A model generated the notes under the pieces. It was given only the letters and a program-made list of their open reading frames with translations. It made no database searches and had not been told where the DNA came from. From Nitrospirota bacterium (GTDB lineage Bacteria; Nitrospirota; Thermodesulfovibrionia; Thermodesulfovibrionales; UBA1546), in contig JACQXE010000004.1 of the NCBI GenBank assembly GCA_016208915.1, positions 1-64,000 of the forward strand: DNA of 64,000 nt, given 5' to 3'. Position 1 is the first letter of the stretch, and each line of letters starts with the position of its first letter. Shown here in pieces: positions 9,349 to 24,825 of the stretch. The translations under genes and the position numbers were made by a program.

Positions 9349-9762
9349 CTAAGTATTATTCTCTTTCGCATACAATGTCGCAATCATGTTGTAAAAAAAC
9401 AAAAAGATTGATAAGGCCTCTATAATTCCAAATACAACTGTAAGATTTTTATACACCTCAGTCTCAGAATTATAAACCCCAAGCGCATAGAAGCCAAGCA
9501 TCCCCACAAGCCCGATATTTGAAAGCCAGAACTGCATCTCTCCCATTGTCTTGCTCTTTAGAAACCTGCCTGCAAATTTAGGGAGTATGTGATAGCCGAC
9601 ACCGTATATCATCATTGAGACCCATCCGAGAAGCATTAGGTGGGAATGCACAAATTTCAATGAAAGAAGAGACGGTATTCTTATCATGCATATTCCCAGT
9701 ATTGATGCTATTGCAAGATAAACAATGCTCATTAAGATAAAGTTCTTTACAAATTTGTCCAT
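9349..9762 (-). CDS. Small heme-copper-oxidase subunit I-like membrane protein
   Basis: This 137-aa protein has four predicted membrane helices. The second begins FVHSHLMLLGWVSMMIYGVGYHILPKF, resembling the heme-ligating helix of cbb3-type oxidase and NorB subunit I. It is far too short for an oxidase (about 450 aa or more) and lacks the copper-site helices. Such short homologues occur beside nitrogen-oxide genes; the histidines could bind a low-spin heme. It is transcribed divergently from the Fe-S protein gene, with an FNR-like palindrome about 60 bases upstream. The exact function is unknown. Confidence 0.65.
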   Translation of the reverse strand: MDKFVKNFILMSIVYLAIASILGICMIRIPSLLSLKFVHSHLMLLGWVSMMIYGVGYHILPKFAGRFLKSKTMGEMQFWLSNIGLVGMLGFYALGVYNSETEVYKNLTVVFGIIEALSIFLFFYNMIATLYAKENNT

Positions 9763-10647: not shown

Positions 10648-10860
10648 ATGACAGCAACAAAAATAAAGGTAACAAAAGATACCTTAATAGGAGATGTAAT
10701 AAAAAACAGCCCTTCAGGCACCAAGATTATAGAGAAATATTTTGGCAACGGCTGTTTCACATGCCCGGGAGTAAAGGTTGAATCTATCGCGTTCGGAGCT
10801 ATGATGCACAATGTTGACCCAAACAAGATTGTAGATGAAATAAATGCGCTTTCAGATTAA
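10648..10860 (+). CDS. DUF1858 domain protein
   Basis: This 70-aa protein, preceded by AAAAAGGAGGTTAAG, has the whole DUF1858 fold: ITKDT-like start (VTKDTLIGDVIKNSP), a GTKIIEKYFGNGCFTCPG core with the typical CxxC, and a C-terminal helix ending VDEINALSD. DUF1858 proteins resemble the N-terminal part of ScdA/YtfE-type iron-sulfur repair proteins and occur near hcp and nitrite/NO genes; the biochemical role is not known. The FNR-like palindrome upstream places it in the same putative regulon. Confidence 0.85.
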   Translation: MTATKIKVTKDTLIGDVIKNSPSGTKIIEKYFGNGCFTCPGVKVESIAFGAMMHNVDPNKIVDEINALSD

Positions 10861-11024: not shown

Positions 11025-12656
11025 ATGCGAAAAAATATCTTTGTATTTTTATTAGCATTCCTTACGCTTATTGCGACAGGTTTTGTTTATTATGCACCGG
11101 CTGATGCACAGAAAGCAGTGACTGAAAAACCTGTCAAGGCAGAGGCATGTTATGGCTGTCATGTAGATATTAAAGACTTTCACACAAAAGGAAAACATTC
11201 AAAGGTAAGCTGTTCGAACTGCCATGAAGGCATAGACAAACATCTTAAGAATTCATCTACAGCGCCTGTCACAAAAATGGATCATGCCACTTGTGGTAAA
11301 TGCCACAAAGAACAATATGAGTCTTTTATTTCAGTAAATCTCGAATCAAAGGCAAAAGTGGAAAAAGCCACATTCAAGAGCAGATCGCCGTTATTCGACA
11401 AGCTGATGGCCCCTCATGGCTTTACAAAAGAGCACGCTGAGCCGAGAAGCCATGTATTTATGCTCATTGACCATTATACTGTTGACAGAGCCTACGGCGG
11501 AAGATTCCAGCTTAAAAACTGGACCAATATAACTGATGGCAAGGCTTCTGAAAAATCAGCATGGGAACTTCTTACAGATAAAGAACCTTCAACATCTGAT
11601 CAGAAAGTATTCATGCCGCAGACTGCAACAGCAGCAAATCCAGTCTGTCTCCAGTGTAAGACTCAGGATAACATACTTAGATGGAAATATATGGGAGACA
11701 AAGACCCAAAGGCAAAATGGGACAGGACATCAAAGGTTGTTGAACTCGCCAGAGATCTGAGGCATCCGATAAACTGCTTTGCATGTCATGACCCGCATTC
11801 AACACAGCCGAGGGTTGTAAGGGATGCGCTCATAGAAGCAGTTGTTGACAGAGGCGAAGGGACGTATCCGTATGATAAAGAAAAGAGCAAGAAGGTCACG
11901 ATAAAAAAAGTTATGTTCAGGGACTTCAGGGCAATCGGCATTCTTAACAAACCTGATTCCAATCTCTTATGCGCCCAGTGTCATGTTGAGTATAACTGCA
12001 ATCCGGGACATAATCCTGAGACAGGCGAAGCAGTCGGGATGACTGACAGAAGGACAAACCTATTTCAGTGGGTAAATGTATTTGACTATAACAAAAAGAT
12101 GGCAGAGTATAAATTTAAAGACTTTAAGCACGCAACCACCGGCGCATCCCTTTCAAAGATTCAGCATCCTGAGGTTGAGACATTCTGGGGAAGCAAACAC
12201 GAAAAGGCAGGAGTTGAATGCAAAGACTGCCATATGCCGAAGATAAAAAAAGGAAACAAGGCATACACATGGCATGGACAGAGGAGCGCAAGATACATGA
12301 AGAGAGATACATGCGTAAAATGTCATCCGGACTGGACAGAACAGGAAGCTGATTATCAGATAGATGCAATCCAGAACTACATCAGGGGGAAACTCACAAA
12401 GGCGGAATTCTGGCTTGGACAGTTCATAGACACATTTGCAAAGGCAAAGGCTGCGGGTGCTCCAGAAGAAACCTTAAAAGAAGCAAGGGCATTGCACGAT
12501 ACAGCCCAAACATACTGGGAATGGTGGACTGCTGAAAACAGCGATGGCTTCCATAATCAGGATGCTGCAAGGGAATCTTTGGCGAGGTCTATTGATGCAT
12601 CTCAAAAGGGAATAAAACTGCTGAATGATGCAATGGCCTCTGCAGCTAAAAAATAA
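11025..12656 (+). CDS. Octaheme ammonia-forming nitrite reductase (ONR/TvNiR-like)
   Basis: This 543-aa exported cytochrome has an N-terminal signal peptide (to about residue 29) and eight heme motifs: CYGCH 42, CSNCH 63, CGKCH 90, the lysine-ligated CLQCK 208, CFACH 251, CAQCH 316, CKDCH 399 and CVKCH 430. A single CxxCK as heme 4, followed by an NrfA-like core (HPEVETFWGSKHEKAGVECK), defines octaheme nitrite reductases, which reduce nitrite or hydroxylamine to ammonium in the periplasm. The segment HVEYNCNPG gives Y323-N-C325, matching the Tyr-x-Cys that is cross-linked in the Thioalkalivibrio enzyme. The start follows AAAAAGGAGGCGTCTG. It lies 164 bases after the DUF1858 gene. Confidence 0.9.
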   Translation: MRKNIFVFLLAFLTLIATGFVYYAPADAQKAVTEKPVKAEACYGCHVDIKDFHTKGKHSKVSCSNCHEGIDKHLKNSSTAPVTKMDHATCGKCHKEQYESFISVNLESKAKVEKATFKSRSPLFDKLMAPHGFTKEHAEPRSHVFMLIDHYTVDRAYGGRFQLKNWTNITDGKASEKSAWELLTDKEPSTSDQKVFMPQTATAANPVCLQCKTQDNILRWKYMGDKDPKAKWDRTSKVVELARDLRHPINCFACHDPHSTQPRVVRDALIEAVVDRGEGTYPYDKEKSKKVTIKKVMFRDFRAIGILNKPDSNLLCAQCHVEYNCNPGHNPETGEAVGMTDRRTNLFQWVNVFDYNKKMAEYKFKDFKHATTGASLSKIQHPEVETFWGSKHEKAGVECKDCHMPKIKKGNKAYTWHGQRSARYMKRDTCVKCHPDWTEQEADYQIDAIQNYIRGKLTKAEFWLGQFIDTFAKAKAAGAPEETLKEARALHDTAQTYWEWWTAENSDGFHNQDAARESLARSIDASQKGIKLLNDAMASAAKK

Positions 12657-12747: not shown

Positions 12748-13977
12748 ATGAATATTTTAAGGATTTTGCTGGTATTGTGCTGCGCTCTTCTGATGAGCAG
12801 TCTTTCATTTGCCGCCGGCCAGAAAAGCGTCTGCATTGACTGCCACAAAAAAATAACTCCCGGTGTAGTTCAGCAGCATCTTGATGGCAAGATGTCAAAA
12901 AAGGGCATTGACTGCTCAACATGTCACGGCTCTGAACATAAGAAGGCTGATGATGCAAAGCTTGCAAAGATGCCTACACCAGAAACCTGTTCCGGCTGCC
13001 ATTCAAAACAGGTAGACCAGTTTAAGGCAGGAAAACATAATCTCGCATGGATTGCGGCAAGCGCAATGCCCATGTGGGCGCATCAGCCAAAGGGTGTTGT
13101 AGGGGAAGGTTATAAGGGCTGTTCAAGCTGCCACAAGATAGGCGTAAAGGGTGAAAAAGAGAAATACGAATATCATTACGGGAATGCCCAGTGCGATTCA
13201 TGTCATACAAGACATTCATTCAAGAAATCAGAGGCGCAGGACCCTCGCGCATGTCAGACATGCCACATGGGTTTTGACCATCCCCAGTGGGAAATGTGGT
13301 CGACATCAAAGCATGGGTCAATCTGGCAGATAGAAGGCAAGGGAAGCAAGCGCGCGCCTACCTGCCAGACATGCCATATGGCTGGAGGAGACCATAATGT
13401 AATGACATCATGGGGCTTTCTTGCATTAAGGCTTCCTGAAGATGACAAGGACTGGCTGAATGACAGGGTGACGATACTTCAGGCACTCGGTGTTCTTGAT
13501 GATAAAGGCAACCCGACTGCAAGGCTTGATGTAGTAAAGGCTGGCAAGGTTGCGAGACTCACAAAAGAAGAGTTCCAAAAAGAACGCGACAAGATGATAA
13601 AGATCTGTGCAAACTGTCATGGAACTTCATATGCAAAAAACCAGCTCGAGGCTGCTGATATGGTTATTAAGGATGTAGACAAGATAATGGCTGAGGCAAT
13701 AAGAGAAGTTCAGGGTCTTTACAAAGATGGAATACTCAAAAAACCTGCGAACTGGACGTTTGCGCCTGATCTGCTTCAGTTCTATGAGGCAAAAAGCTCG
13801 GTCGAGCAGGACCTCTATGTCATGTTTCTCGAATACCGGATGAGGGCGTTTCAGGGCGCGTTCCATATGAACCCTGACTACATGCACTGGTACGGCTGGG
13901 CTCCGATGAAGGAGACATTGCAGAAAATTAAGGATGAGGCAGAAAAGTTGAGGGCTGAAAAGGCTGCGAAAAAGTAA
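12748..13977 (+). CDS. Octaheme hydroxylamine oxidoreductase-like cytochrome
   Basis: This 409-aa exported protein (signal peptide ending near LSFAAG) has eight CxxCH motifs at about residues 29, 56, 81, 125, 149, 169, 206 and 287, and a helical C-terminal domain. This is the hydroxylamine oxidoreductase (HAO) family pattern. The family includes hydroxylamine and hydrazine oxidases, which need a Tyr cross-linked to the P460 heme, and reductive HAOs that lack it. The C-terminal HMNPDYMHWYGW segment contains tyrosines in roughly the right region, but which position is equivalent needs alignment. A ribosome site ACAGGAGGTTTTT precedes the ATG. Its coupling to ONR suggests nitrite/hydroxylamine chemistry. 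Confidence 0.87.
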   Translation: MNILRILLVLCCALLMSSLSFAAGQKSVCIDCHKKITPGVVQQHLDGKMSKKGIDCSTCHGSEHKKADDAKLAKMPTPETCSGCHSKQVDQFKAGKHNLAWIAASAMPMWAHQPKGVVGEGYKGCSSCHKIGVKGEKEKYEYHYGNAQCDSCHTRHSFKKSEAQDPRACQTCHMGFDHPQWEMWSTSKHGSIWQIEGKGSKRAPTCQTCHMAGGDHNVMTSWGFLALRLPEDDKDWLNDRVTILQALGVLDDKGNPTARLDVVKAGKVARLTKEEFQKERDKMIKICANCHGTSYAKNQLEAADMVIKDVDKIMAEAIREVQGLYKDGILKKPANWTFAPDLLQFYEAKSSVEQDLYVMFLEYRMRAFQGAFHMNPDYMHWYGWAPMKETLQKIKDEAEKLRAEKAAKK

Positions 13978-13981
13978 TATA

Positions 13982-14006
13982 TAGGGGGGAGCAAGCTCCC
14001 CCCTTT
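13982..14006 (+). terminator. Rho-independent terminator after the HAO-like gene
   Basis: The hairpin AGGGGGGAGCAAGCTCCCCCC followed by TTTTCTCTTT lies just after the stop at 13977. It ends the nitrite-reductase/HAO transcript. Confidence 0.85.
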
Positions 14007-14075: not shown

Positions 14076-14237
14076 ATGCAAAAATACAAATGTACTGTAT
14101 GCGGTTACATCTATGACCCTGAAGCAGGAGACCCTGACAGCGGAATACCGCCAAATACACTTTTTGAGAAGCTTCCGGATGACTGGACATGCCCTGTATG
14201 CGGAGCACAAAAAGACCAGTTCGAAAAAACTGATTAA
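14076..14237 (+). CDS. Rubredoxin
   Basis: This 53-aa gene is too short for the ORF track. It starts [19 protein letters not shown] and ends with [15 protein letters not shown]: the two CxxCG pairs that hold a single Fe, plus the conserved aromatic and PDDW residues. The ribosome site AAAAGGAGGATAAG sits ahead of ATG 14076. Rubredoxins pass electrons to rubrerythrin and flavodiiron proteins, both encoded at 23-25 kb. Five bases separate its stop from the next gene, so the two form an operon. Confidence 0.95.
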
Positions 14238-14242
14238 GAAAT

Positions 14243-15184
14243 ATGAGACCGAAGGTCCTGAAAAGATTGCTTTTAATCATATATCTTTCTATTTTTGTAA
14301 CAGCCCTATTTTCATCAATATCATCTGCAACAACTGATTATGCCAGGCAAACAGGTCTGCAGTGCAGTGAATGCCATACAGAGGCAATCGGAGGAGGACA
14401 GCTTACAAAGGAAGGCGAGAAGTTTCTTGATGAGATGAGGATCAAAGGCCTATACATGCCTTTGACAATGACCCAGAAGGCAATCCGCCTGATGATCGGC
14501 TACATCCATCTGCTTGTAGCAATTGCATGGTTTGGAACCATCCTTTACGTTCATATCCTTCTGAAACCTGCGTATGCTTCAAAGGGGCTTCCAAAAGGCG
14601 AATTGATTCTTGGGTGGTTTTCTATCATAATCCTTTCCGTAACAGGCACTCTTCTGACCTTATCTATAATACCCGCATGGAAGGCGTTTTACATGACGAG
14701 ATTTGGAATACTTTTAGGCATAAAAATCATCCTTTTCATCCTCATGGTTACAACAGCAGTTATAGTCACATTTTACATTGGTCCCAAGATGAGGAAAAGA
14801 TGGGGGATTAAGGGCAAGGAAGACCTGTCAGGCAATAAAAGAGACCTGACAAGCGAAGAACTCCATAGCTTTGACGGCAAAGAAGGACGTCCTGCATATG
14901 TTGCATATAAAGGAAGCATTTATGATGTTACACAGAGCAAGCTCTGGAAAAACGGCTCGCACCTTCAGAAACATCTGGCCGGTCACAACCTTACAAACGC
15001 CTTAAAAACCGCTCCCCATGGAGAAGACAAGATACTTGCAATGCCGAAGATAGGGCACCTTATTCCTGCTATAGAAAAAACAGCAAAGCCATTTTATGAA
15101 AAGCTTTTTTATTTCTTTGCCTATCTTAATCTTGCTTTGGTGTTTCTCATCGTCTTTGTTATAGCTTTGTGGAAATGGGATTAA
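14243..15184 (+). CDS. Fusion: monoheme c / CopD-like membrane / cytochrome b5-like protein
   Basis: This 313-aa protein joins several parts. A signal peptide (1-29) is followed by a CSECH heme c site at 41-45. Three to four membrane helices (about 80-190, IGYIHLLVAIAWFGTILYVHI) resemble the CopD family. A cytochrome b5-like heme/steroid-binding domain comes next (about 205-280, AYVAYKGSIYDVTQSKLWKNG, with HLAGHNLT). A last membrane helix lies near the C-terminus. It could carry electrons between the quinone pool or inner membrane and periplasmic cytochromes. It sits in an operon with rubredoxin, directly after the nitrite/HAO genes. The whole arrangement is unusual, and its partner is not known. 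Confidence 0.75.
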   Translation: MRPKVLKRLLLIIYLSIFVTALFSSISSATTDYARQTGLQCSECHTEAIGGGQLTKEGEKFLDEMRIKGLYMPLTMTQKAIRLMIGYIHLLVAIAWFGTILYVHILLKPAYASKGLPKGELILGWFSIIILSVTGTLLTLSIIPAWKAFYMTRFGILLGIKIILFILMVTTAVIVTFYIGPKMRKRWGIKGKEDLSGNKRDLTSEELHSFDGKEGRPAYVAYKGSIYDVTQSKLWKNGSHLQKHLAGHNLTNALKTAPHGEDKILAMPKIGHLIPAIEKTAKPFYEKLFYFFAYLNLALVFLIVFVIALWKWD

Positions 15185-15211
15185 GGCAGGATTTTGGAAT
15201 AAGACAAATAT

Positions 15212-15239
15212 AAAAGGGGGCAAGATTTGCCCCCTTTTA
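15212..15239. terminator. Bidirectional terminator between convergent genes
   Basis: The sequence AAAAGGGGGCAAGATTTGCCCCCTTTTAA forms a strong stem with A and T runs on both sides. It can end both the b5 fusion gene (plus) and the FadL-like gene (minus). Confidence 0.85.
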
Positions 15240-18876: not shown

Positions 18877-20391
18877 TTAGAACACGACATCAAAGGTAAG
18901 ATAGAGATCCTTTGCGTTTTTAAGAGGCGCAAACATCTGTGATGTTGTATCACTTGTTGTCAAGTCAGATATCTTATGCGGCGCTCCAACCCAGTTCTGG
19001 CTCCCTGTATACTTGAAAGAGTAATACTGATAACCGAGCCTGAAGAATGCCTTGCCTTTCTTCGAGATTGGCTTCTGATTGAGTTCCTGTATTATGTATG
19101 CCTCATAGACATTGCCTCTTGTGCCGAGCTTGGTTGTCCACATATCATCTGATGCTGGCGTAAATGCAAGCCAGTTCTTTGAACCGCGGTTATATTCCAG
19201 ACCAAGCTTAGTGCCTGTTGCTTTAAGGTCATATCTTCCACCGAGATATATCACATTACCTGTACGGGATTTTTTCCCTTCGTAAGAGTCCCAAAGTAAA
19301 CCATACTGCCCCAAAGCTGCCATAGGTGGATAATAATTATTATTGGGATGAGTCTTGCTGAGAGCAGCAGATAAGAAAAGATTCAGATCGCCCATGCCAA
19401 CATTATCAAGCCTGCCCACAATTACACTGCCATACTGATCCACATCACCAAGATTAGTGTTGGTAGCTCCACTAATATCAGTAGCGCTTGCAAATATATT
19501 GAAGGCCCTGTTCCACTGCAATTCAACATGGAGGTTATCAGTATCGTGGGGAACAATATTAATGCCGAGCATGTCTACATCCTTCAGCCCATTATTAGGT
19601 CTGAAACCGCTGTCGAATCCTTTGCCATAGCAAATCTTTGCATATGCGCCTGGCAAATCAGCTATATCAGGCGCATAACCAACAGTCAGTCCATCAAAAG
19701 CCCAGTCTATCATAAAGCCTGGAACGCCTGCAGTGCTTGTTCTTTCAGTATTCTGCCTTATATTTGTAGGTATGCCTCCTGTTGACGGCCTTCTGCCAAC
19801 AGAAATCCATCCGGGCATACCAGCGACATTGCTCCATGTAGCGTATGCCTGATCAACCCTCAGAGTGTTGTCTTGCGGTGTATGTCCTATATTTGCATCA
19901 AATATGCTTTGCTTGTCAGCAAAATAGGCATTGGAACCTGTAACAGGATCAGAACTCTCCCATCCCCATACCTTATACATCAGCAATCTTGCCTTTACCT
20001 GAATGTCTTCTGTTGCCTTTGCCTTGAGATTCAACCCGAATCGGTTAGTCAGCAGCGCATCGTTTGCGAGATTTTTACCTGCAACACCGCTGCCCATTAC
20101 TTTTGCATCATGCGTCTTTCCTTTCAGGCTGTCGAGTCTGAATCTGTAATCACCGCCTATATCCAGCCATGATTGTCCTGTTGCTTTTTCAGCCTTTTCC
20201 TCGACCTTTGTGATTCTCTCCTCTTTTGCAGTCTCTTTTTTCTGAATTTCATTTAACTGCTGTTTCATTTTTTCGAGTTCCTTTGACAGCGAGTCAATCT
20301 TCTGCATAAGATCTGTCGTTGGGTCAGCAGCTAATGAGGTATAAGGCAGAAACAAAGCGAGTGCAACAAAAACCGCAAACAATCGCTTCAT
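18877..20391 (-). CDS. DUF3373-like outer-membrane porin with N-terminal coiled coil
   Basis: This 504-aa protein has a signal peptide (to about residue 22) and a coiled coil (about 27-68, DLMQKIDSLSKELEKMKQQL). A beta-barrel follows with repeated aromatic strands, starting WLDIGGDYRFRLDSLKG and ending LYLTFDVVF. The coiled coil plus barrel is typical of DUF3373/OprP-like porins that tether to the wall. The substrate is unknown. It is monocistronic, with its own terminator. DUF3373 proteins are common in metal- and nitrogen-respiring anaerobes. Confidence 0.82.
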   Translation of the reverse strand: MKRLFAVFVALALFLPYTSLAADPTTDLMQKIDSLSKELEKMKQQLNEIQKKETAKEERITKVEEKAEKATGQSWLDIGGDYRFRLDSLKGKTHDAKVMGSGVAGKNLANDALLTNRFGLNLKAKATEDIQVKARLLMYKVWGWESSDPVTGSNAYFADKQSIFDANIGHTPQDNTLRVDQAYATWSNVAGMPGWISVGRRPSTGGIPTNIRQNTERTSTAGVPGFMIDWAFDGLTVGYAPDIADLPGAYAKICYGKGFDSGFRPNNGLKDVDMLGINIVPHDTDNLHVELQWNRAFNIFASATDISGATNTNLGDVDQYGSVIVGRLDNVGMGDLNLFLSAALSKTHPNNNYYPPMAALGQYGLLWDSYEGKKSRTGNVIYLGGRYDLKATGTKLGLEYNRGSKNWLAFTPASDDMWTTKLGTRGNVYEAYIIQELNQKPISKKGKAFFRLGYQYYSFKYTGSQNWVGAPHKISDLTTSDTTSQMFAPLKNAKDLYLTFDVVF

Positions 20392-21446: not shown

Positions 21447-22970
21447 TTATCTCTTCTTGCTTATCTTTTCCTTAAGATCAATCATATCTCTCATATTTTT
21501 TAAGTTATTCGTCAGTTCCCACCATCCGAGTTTAAATGCCTGATAATCAGGAGCTCCTGTCATGGCAGATGCATAGCGAATAGAATTCGAATAAAAAAGC
21601 CACTGTTTTACCCACAGCTGCTCTATCGCTTCATCAAATGGATTGGTCTTATCTTCTATCCCTTTTTCCCATGACTCAACCAACAGTAGTGTCGCTGACA
21701 AAGTCATATCATTTGTTTCTTTAATTGTATTTGCGAGTTTTTCAAAATGCCCGTTGGTCCAGTCTGTGCTGTGGCAGCCGCCGCATACCCGTTTCATTGA
21801 TGCAATTCTTCTGTCCTGCTCTGTTTTATCTATCAGATATTCTGAGGCAGGCTCTCCTGTGAAAGTAACAGGCAACGGCAGACCGTCTTTATTTTTTATA
21901 ATACTTGTATTGCCTGATTTCGGCTGCGGATGGCTGTAAACCAGACCAAAAAGCCTGACCCACAATCTTGAACCAAAATCATGCGTTCTCTCAGCAAGCA
22001 CACTGCCGTCAGGAGAAACAAGAAGACTGTTATGGCATGTTGCGCATGTCGGCGCCTTTACATCTTTGCCGATTGTCCAGGGAACTGCGTTAAAATCCCA
22101 TTCATAATATTTCGAAGCATATATGTTCCCGTGCTTGCTCTCTTTATATACATTAAATGCAGGCACATCAGGCTCAAGATGGCACTGTCCGCAGGTATAG
22201 GGCTTTCTTGCAACCTCTATGGAAAATCCGTGTCTTGGATGGCAGGCAGTGCAGGAGCCAAGGCTGCCATCAGGATTCTCCCTTCCTACCCCTTGATTTG
22301 GCCAGTTTGTAAGGTCAGGGACAGTAATCTCGCCCATTTTGGCAGTCATAACTTTTTTCATGCCTTTTACTTCTATTTTTGTTCCATGACAGGCAAGACA
22401 AGTTTCATTAAGAGTAATATCCGATGGTTTATCTGTTGTTATTCTGTTGTTATCTATTTTTTTTACCCCTGTAATAGTGCTCACCAAAGTATGATACACA
22501 GGGTTTTCCATTATATTTTTTATAGCGTGAGCCTTCTTGCTGTCAGAATACTGTTTTACCTCTGCAGGATGACATGTTTGACAGTCATTGGGTGAAGCAA
22601 TTACATTTATCTTATACCCCATATGAGTGAAATTATCCTTATGTTTTTCAGGATTGAGGCTGTGGCACTCATAACATCCAACAATTTTTTCTGATAATTC
22701 AACTGGAATCTCAGCAGCTGAAACTCTTCTCTGAAAAACAGGTTTTTTTATACCCTCTGCCGGAGTTGTCTTTGAATGCCTGCTTGAAAGCCAGTCTTCC
22801 ACAATACCGGGAGTATATATCTTATGACATGCAAGGCATGCCTGTGTCTGAGTGCTGATGTTTGGCTCTGCTTTCTTGTCTATCTTATCTTCAGAGGCGT
22901 TCAGTGACGTCAAAAACAACACCACCATGAAAAACGAAAACATGCCTGTTTTTATTGCCGTGGATTTCAT
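21447..22970 (-). CDS. Second octaheme HAO-like multiheme cytochrome c
   Basis: This 507-aa exported cytochrome (signal peptide to about residue 25) has eight CxxCH motifs: CLACH, CYECH, CQTCH, CLACH, CTACH, CGQCH, CATCH and CGGCH. A helical C-terminal domain contains GAPDYQAFKLGWWEL. The spacing and the C-terminal helices match the HAO family. It differs clearly from the 409-aa HAO-like protein at 12.7 kb: the N-terminal heme spacing is longer and an extra loop (residues 155-200) is present. It is probably periplasmic and redox-active on small nitrogen or sulfur compounds. It is transcribed toward repeat copy 3. Confidence 0.82.
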   Translation of the reverse strand: MKSTAIKTGMFSFFMVVLFLTSLNASEDKIDKKAEPNISTQTQACLACHKIYTPGIVEDWLSSRHSKTTPAEGIKKPVFQRRVSAAEIPVELSEKIVGCYECHSLNPEKHKDNFTHMGYKINVIASPNDCQTCHPAEVKQYSDSKKAHAIKNIMENPVYHTLVSTITGVKKIDNNRITTDKPSDITLNETCLACHGTKIEVKGMKKVMTAKMGEITVPDLTNWPNQGVGRENPDGSLGSCTACHPRHGFSIEVARKPYTCGQCHLEPDVPAFNVYKESKHGNIYASKYYEWDFNAVPWTIGKDVKAPTCATCHNSLLVSPDGSVLAERTHDFGSRLWVRLFGLVYSHPQPKSGNTSIIKNKDGLPLPVTFTGEPASEYLIDKTEQDRRIASMKRVCGGCHSTDWTNGHFEKLANTIKETNDMTLSATLLLVESWEKGIEDKTNPFDEAIEQLWVKQWLFYSNSIRYASAMTGAPDYQAFKLGWWELTNNLKNMRDMIDLKEKISKKR

Positions 22971-23598: not shown

Positions 23599-24825
23599 CT
23601 AACCCTCCTTTTCAAATTTTTTATGATAGTCTTTTACTTTCTTCGCAAATTCCCTGCCGAATTCATAACACTTAGCTTCATCCTCAGCAGATGGCCTGTA
23701 TAGAACCTGGAGTCCAGGCTCAAAAATCTCCTGTCCCATTTTCTTGAATTCCTCATAAGCCTCTTTTACTGCGCCGCCTCCCCATCCAAAACTGCCAAAG
23801 GCGCCCATTATCCTGTTCTTCGGTCTCAGGCCTCTGAGATGAGCCATTAGCTCAGCAACAGACGGAAACATGAGATTATTTAAGGTGGGAGTGCCTATCA
23901 AACAGCCCCTTGATTTCCAAAACTCCTTGATAGCAACACTCATGGGCGTTGCCCTGAGCTTTATCACTTTGCAATCAACTCCTTCATCCTTAATGCCCTG
24001 TATTATAGGCAATGTCATATATTCAGTGCTGTGCCACATGGTATCGTAAATGACTGACACGCTGAGATTAGCCTTTCCGTTTGCCATATCCATATACATC
24101 TGCAAGACCTTCTGCGGATTTGCCCTCCAGATTATTCCATGGTCAGGCGCGATCATCTCAATCTCCAAACCCAATTTTTGTATATCTGCAATCTTCGTCT
24201 TTATCAACTGCCCGAACGGCATCAGGATATTGGCGTAATAATCCACAACTGCATCTTCAAGCTCAGACATGGATTCGCAGGTGACGAATTCATCGTCGAA
24301 TCTTACTGCAGATGCAATATGCTGGCCGAATGCATCCTGACTAATAAGGAGCTTTTCTTCTTTTATATATGTCATCATGGAATCCGGCCAATGAAGCATT
24401 GGAGTTTCCAGAAAAAGAAGAGTCCTTCTACCGATTTTCAATGTGTCACCGGTCTTTACAATCTTTATATCCCATTCAGACATATCAAAAAACCTCTCGA
24501 GACCTTTTCTGCCCTTTTCAGTCATGTAGACAGTAGCCTTCGGGGTCAGATTCATTATCCTATCAATGCTCGTTGCATGGTCATTCTCTATATGGTTTAT
24601 AACAACATGCCTTATCTTCGAGGGGTCAACAACAGATTTGATGTTCTTGATGGTAATATCTGCGAAATCGTATTTGACTGTATCCAAAAGCGTTATCTCA
24701 TCATCCATTATCAGATAATTATTATAGGTTGTGCCTCGGGGCGTTATGTAACCGTGGAAATCCCTGACAGCCCAATCAACAGCTCCAACCCAGTAGATAT
24801 CCTTCTTAATCTCAACAGCCTTCAT
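23599..24825 (-). CDS. Flavodiiron protein (A-type)
   Basis: This 408-aa protein has an N-terminal metallo-beta-lactamase-like domain with diiron ligands HIENDH at 78-83 and others including TPMLHWPDSM, SQDAFGQH and APDHGIIWR. A C-terminal flavodoxin domain follows (about 253-395, VIYDTMWHSTEYM, GTPTLNNL, GAFGSFGWGGGA). No rubredoxin domain is attached, so a separate rubredoxin (such as that at 14.1 kb) would supply electrons. These enzymes reduce O2 to water or NO to N2O in the cytoplasm. It is co-transcribed with rubrerythrin. Confidence 0.95.
   Translation of the reverse strand: MKAVEIKKDIYWVGAVDWAVRDFHGYITPRGTTYNNYLIMDDEITLLDTVKYDFADITIKNIKSVVDPSKIRHVVINHIENDHATSIDRIMNLTPKATVYMTEKGRKGLERFFDMSEWDIKIVKTGDTLKIGRRTLLFLETPMLHWPDSMMTYIKEEKLLISQDAFGQHIASAVRFDDEFVTCESMSELEDAVVDYYANILMPFGQLIKTKIADIQKLGLEIEMIAPDHGIIWRANPQKVLQMYMDMANGKANLSVSVIYDTMWHSTEYMTLPIIQGIKDEGVDCKVIKLRATPMSVAIKEFWKSRGCLIGTPTLNNLMFPSVAELMAHLRGLRPKNRIMGAFGSFGWGGGAVKEAYEEFKKMGQEIFEPGLQVLYRPSAEDEAKCYEFGREFAKKVKDYHKKFEKEG

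Follow-up and report, generated by a model that had tools for sequence, protein, structure and literature searches.

A gene in the window studied here (the whole 64,000-nucleotide stretch of a Nitrospirota genome that was analysed) encodes a single protein in which a monohaem cytochrome c domain, a CopD-like membrane domain and a cytochrome b5-like domain are fused, a combination that is real, conserved and apparently so far undescribed. Reading from sequence, I suggest with a probability of roughly one half that this fusion is a conserved membrane haemoprotein of Nitrospirota that supplies periplasmic N-oxide reductases with electrons moved across the cytoplasmic membrane. Electron transfer is a plausible role because the fusion occurs widely and is strictly conserved, as are all candidate axial histidines of its b5 domain. 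The protein is tied more to nitric oxide reductase (NOR) than to the octahaem enzymes, i.e., the octahaem nitrite reductase-type cytochrome (ONR) and the HAO-like cytochrome, that are encoded beside it in the window. The coordinates of the features discussed are collected in Table 1.

Table 1. Features of the fusion protein gene and of its surroundings in the window
Feature	Position	Strand	Details
Octahaem nitrite reductase-type cytochrome (ONR)	11025..12656	+	7 CxxCH and one CxxCK (CLQCK); family-level neighbour
HAO-like octahaem cytochrome	12748..13977	+	8 CxxCH; family-level neighbour
Intrinsic terminator between HAO-like gene and rubredoxin	13983..14004	+	-18.6 kcal/mol, strong
Rubredoxin	14076..14237	+	PF00301, E 1.5e-24; 5-nt gap to downstream fusion gene
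Fusion protein gene	14243..15184	+	313 aa; signal peptide, monohaem c, CopD-like TM1-3, cytochrome b5-like, C-terminal TM4
Monohaem c domain, predicted periplasmic	14330..14482	+	CxxCH at 14363-14377
CopD-like membrane domain, TM1-TM3	14486..14785	+	PF05425 and conservation; invariant H89 (14507-14509), H104 (14552-14554), K161, M168
Cytochrome b5-like domain, predicted cytoplasmic	14840..15067	+	PF00173, 6nzx, 6vz6; invariant W235, H240, H244, H259
C-terminal transmembrane helix TM4	15098..15172	+	Invariant F289, Y294
Terminator-like hairpin 3' of fusion gene	15211..15239		-20.1 kcal/mol

Domains, conservation and topology

The first-pass annotation of this DNA had described two haem types and a membrane domain within one protein, and all three parts were recovered: the only CxxCH of the protein (C41-S-E-C44-H45) lies downstream of the signal peptide (N-terminal hydrophobic segment 9-27), the CopD family PF05425 matches residues 123-190 (E 1.2e-8, 35.7 bits, above the Pfam gathering cut-off of 32.1), and Cyt-b5 PF00173 matches residues 203-273 (E 2.8e-7, 30.9 bits, above the cut-off of 23.7), the same part also aligning with two b5 proteins of solved structure, 6nzx (E 2e-16) and 6vz6 (E 2e-15). 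Haem c attachment takes place in the periplasm, three transmembrane segments separate the c and b5 domains, and the residues just before b5 carry a strong positive charge (mean net +4.3), so haem c is most likely placed outside and b5 in the cytoplasm, which would put the two haem domains on opposite sides of the membrane. An AlphaFold model of the fusion from an 8-row alignment (pLDDT 50, pTM 0.25) was too poor to read pockets or topology from.

Of the 231 genomes of the class to which the window belongs, representing 115 genera, 101 genomes from 60 genera matched the fusion; about 97 remain once b5-only and very short matches are excluded, and homologues also occur in other Nitrospirota classes. 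Restriction to this assembly, which the first-pass annotation had named as grounds for refutation, is thus not observed, and an annotation or assembly artefact is ruled out because dozens of other genomes encode approximately full-length homologues whose frames have no internal stops. On plasmids, no full-length homologue was found, only the b5 domain. Beyond Nitrospirota, coverage consists of a single global scan with peptides taken from the window protein, which can pick up close relatives only. In two genomes (G150:C35:41548-42469; G012:C53 and C2) the fusion is divided between one open frame for c-CopD and another for b5-TM, through a split gene, a frameshift or a contig break.

An alignment of 64 fusion homologues, drawn from the window's class and from other Nitrospirota classes, was used to assess conservation, and C41, C44, H45, H89, W96, Y102, H104, K161, M168, W235, H240, H244 and H259 are invariant in 64 of 64, with E120 as a further conserved charged residue. 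The CxxCH is therefore kept throughout, and so are the three candidate axial histidines of b5 (H240, H244, H259); a lack of both axial histidines in all homologues was the other ground for refutation named in the first-pass annotation. Besides H45, residues 30-80 hold no conserved Met or His that could act as the distal ligand of haem c, where a class I low-spin cytochrome would have one, and no conserved His was found in TM2-TM4 of the 64 homologues to complete a bis-His site with H89 or H104 inside the monomer. Whereas H104 is particular to the fusion, H89 is common to all aligned CopD-like proteins from the same genomes and K161 is found in part of them. These CopD-like proteins match HemJ (UPF0093, PF03653) weakly (E 8e-5) and share a similar TM1 motif, but a search with the fusion itself gave no match to that family, and HemJ kinship was set aside as an argument for haem b at H89/K161, its support being indirect.

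A haem c with no obvious distal ligand could bind NO, and it could be imagined that the haems detect NO or O2 and signal, which would explain the varied N-oxide enzyme partners and the norB-less genomes described below. I consider such a redox or NO sensor very improbable: the variety of the fusion's neighbourhoods speaks for it, but the domain search found no signalling output domain in the fusion, and possible haem sites on both sides of the membrane are better suited to transfer.

Gene neighbourhoods in the window and across Nitrospirota

The first-pass annotation also placed rubredoxin right after the nitrite/HAO genes, and this arrangement is real. Because a terminator precedes the rubredoxin-fusion pair and a hairpin follows it, the two genes may form a transcription unit of their own, apart from the octahaem genes; in the relatives L005 and L007, the terminator sits between ONR and HAO instead. 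Neither NorB (E up to 1e-60) nor a NapH-like protein was detected in the window's genome, which is 98.8% complete, and this genome thus keeps the fusion beside ONR, HAO and rubredoxin without norB or a NapH-like gene. Other genes nearby encode a Crp/Fnr regulator, a prismane-associated redox disulfide protein and, 9 kb off, a flavodiiron protein, and together the genes around the fusion fit N-oxide and nitrosative chemistry.

The redox disulfide protein (DUF1858, hybrid-cluster-protein-associated; 10648-10857) lies just 5' of ONR and is conserved in the family. The flavodiiron protein (ODP plus flavodoxin; 23599-24825, minus strand), 9 kb from the rubredoxin that adjoins the fusion, belongs to a family of NO/O2 reductases whose usual electron source is rubredoxin. 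Another multihaem cytochrome with 8 CxxCH (21447-22970, minus strand) is accompanied by a DUF3373 protein (18877-20391) and a HEAT-repeat protein, and a COX1-like membrane protein of 137 aa (9349-9762, minus strand; PF00115 above cut-off), far shorter than oxidase subunits, is encoded next to the Crp gene, an adjacency conserved across the window's family.

When gene order was examined at 64 fusion loci, the commonest neighbours were a cupin (23), NorB (22), a NorC carrying two haem c domains (19) and a NapH-like Fer4_5 protein (18). Where norB is close to the fusion, the usual order is norC-norB-fusion-(NapH-like)-cupin, and the order norC-norB-fusion recurs within the window's class and in a further Nitrospirota class. 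The NorB is of the cNOR type by similarity to 3o0r chain B (E 6e-116) and retains HLWVEG and GTGHH. Textbook NorC is monohaem, and the NorC of these Nitrospirota (L006 5872-6573) has a second, C-terminal cytochrome c domain and thus two CxxCH. Small Fe-S carriers are also encoded near the fusion, namely rubredoxin at 5 loci and a 61-aa ferredoxin at 6.

Among the genomes possessing both genes, norB lies within 7 kb of the fusion in 26 of 59 (about 0.4 expected), the corresponding figures being 7 of 35 for HAO and 5 of 33 for ONR, with expected numbers of 0.2-0.4 across the three genes, expectations that presume random placement and independent genomes and so yield p-values that are too small. 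Fusion and NorB co-occur with an odds ratio of 9.0 overall and of 5.4 (p 3e-8) when stratified by family, the family borders for unlisted genomes being approximated from handle order, and this stratified value exceeds the odds ratios for HAO (3.8) and ONR (2.3). NOR is a non-obligatory partner, since norB went undetected in 38 of the 97 fusion-bearing genomes.

The first-pass annotation had proposed a membrane electron entry point for the octahaem enzymes, to be sought next to ONR/HAO genes elsewhere. The association does recur in other genomes, but in the class search it is confined to the window's family (f1) and one further HAO case (G010), adding up to 7 HAO and 5 ONR loci, and in most genomes with the fusion and ONR or HAO the genes are far apart. 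In another class, multihaem cytochromes with some ONR similarity are found near the fusion (L098, L099, L111), and one relative, G142 (L006/L046), combines both arrangements as ONR - norC - norB - fusion - NapH-like - cupin. In the tree of fusion proteins, linkage to NOR occurs in rows scattered through the main clade and linkage to the octahaem genes in rows within or next to a single small family clade, which suggests that within the main clade the NOR link is older than the octahaem link; no shared neighbour was found in the deepest fusion clades. That the fusion is a dedicated entry for ONR/HAO is therefore quite improbable to my mind: the instances of close proximity, and the retention of the fusion beside ONR/HAO in a genome lacking NorB and the NapH-like gene, argue for it, but the narrow range of this neighbourhood, the distance separating the genes in most genomes and the terminator that splits HAO from the rubredoxin-fusion pair argue against it. 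What stands of the proposal is electron transfer, which the conserved histidines make plausible; with norCB, encoding nitric oxide reductase, as the widespread and usual partner, serving the octahaem enzymes is at most one among the protein's uses.

A candidate route for electrons

If the fusion is a transmembrane electron carrier, the cytoplasmic b5 haem would be reduced by a small soluble carrier (rubredoxin in the window or, in some relatives, a 4Fe-4S ferredoxin), the CopD-like helices would relay the electrons, probably by way of a haem b held by H89, H104 or both, with K161 as a further candidate ligand, and the periplasmic haem c would pass them on, usually to the NorC of the adjacently encoded cNOR-type reductase. 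Part of the window's family is missing norCB, and there the acceptor could be the octahaem ONR/HAO cytochromes or another periplasmic protein. The domains, the invariant residues and the gene neighbourhood are observed, the topology is deduced from sequence, and the haem loading, the direction of flow and the partners are putative; the weak points of this carrier reading are the 38 of 97 fusion genomes without detected norB, the missing bis-His partner within the chain and the haem c with no evident distal ligand. More specifically, and only tentatively, one may picture a three-haem conduit (b5 in the cytoplasm, a CopD-type bundle bearing haem b in the membrane, haem c in the periplasm) that would take low-potential cytoplasmic electrons from ferredoxin or rubredoxin to periplasmic NO reductase or octahaem N-oxide reductases in anaerobic Nitrospirota, bypassing the quinone pool in a manner not described before.

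The source of the electrons could also be the quinone pool itself, with the CopD-like helices oxidising menaquinol and reducing the periplasmic haem c, which in turn would supply NorC or the octahaem cytochromes, b5 acting as a regulatory or second input, and the whole standing in for a bc1- or NapC-type donor. The NapH-like Fer4_5 membrane protein conserved nearby (18 loci) is of a family associated with quinol-linked periplasmic reduction, and the conserved charged and polar residues K161, E120 and Y102 would suit such a role, but there is no known quinol site, the invariant b5 histidines across the membrane would go unexplained and the window's genome has no detected NapH-like gene, so that I regard this donor as doubtful.

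Alternatively, the fusion may be no carrier and instead assist in assembly or in metal or haem handling for NOR and the octahaem cytochromes, combining CopD-like transport with the cupin and a CcoG/NapH-like protein. Its CopD homology favours this possibility, as do the neighbouring genes for the cupin and for a Fer4_5/Fer4_18 protein similar to assembly factors of the CcoG type, but it is nonetheless unlikely: NOR contains no copper, the score against the NCBIfam equivalog for CopD copper homeostasis (NF033808) is far below its cut-off (34.4 versus 195 bits), and the CxxCH and b5 histidines are invariant in all 64 homologues, as redox centres should be.

Known systems and significance

Several known systems resemble the fusion in part. 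Like all aligned CopD relatives (PF05425), the fusion has H-x6-W in TM1, and it shares the TM3 lysine with part of them, but it adds the invariant H104 and the c and b5 domains, and no copper context was seen. Its whole b5 domain matches single-domain prokaryotic-type cytochromes b5 (6nzx, 6vz6) with the three histidines aligned, although in the fusion this domain is part of a larger membrane protein, anchored by TM3 on one side and TM4 on the other. The proposed job resembles that of MsrQ/YedZ and cytochrome b561, transmembrane electron carriers whose membrane haems connect a cytoplasmic or quinol electron source with an acceptor in the periplasm, but their domains are unrelated and the fusion has its own haem domain on each side. 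It can likewise be compared to the NrfH/NapC-type and NosR/NapH-type donors that bring membrane electrons to periplasmic N-oxide reductases, but these are multihaem c or Fe-S/flavin proteins with neither a CopD nor a b5 domain.

NorBC genes are reported to be prevalent in Thermodesulfovibrionia (PMC11033732). My literature search found no description of how electrons are delivered to NorBC in the anaerobes of this class, and no paper on the c/CopD/b5 fusion, its nearest b5 structures or a nor-linked CopD/b5 protein. A phylum-wide, strictly conserved c/CopD/b5 protein encoded beside norCB is thus a specific candidate for electron delivery to NOR. If it does carry electrons from the cytoplasm to the periplasm, it would represent a new route into N-oxide reduction, with its consequences for N2O formation and nitrosative defence, and would mean that the CopD-type bundle, so far linked to copper, is able to serve electron transfer.
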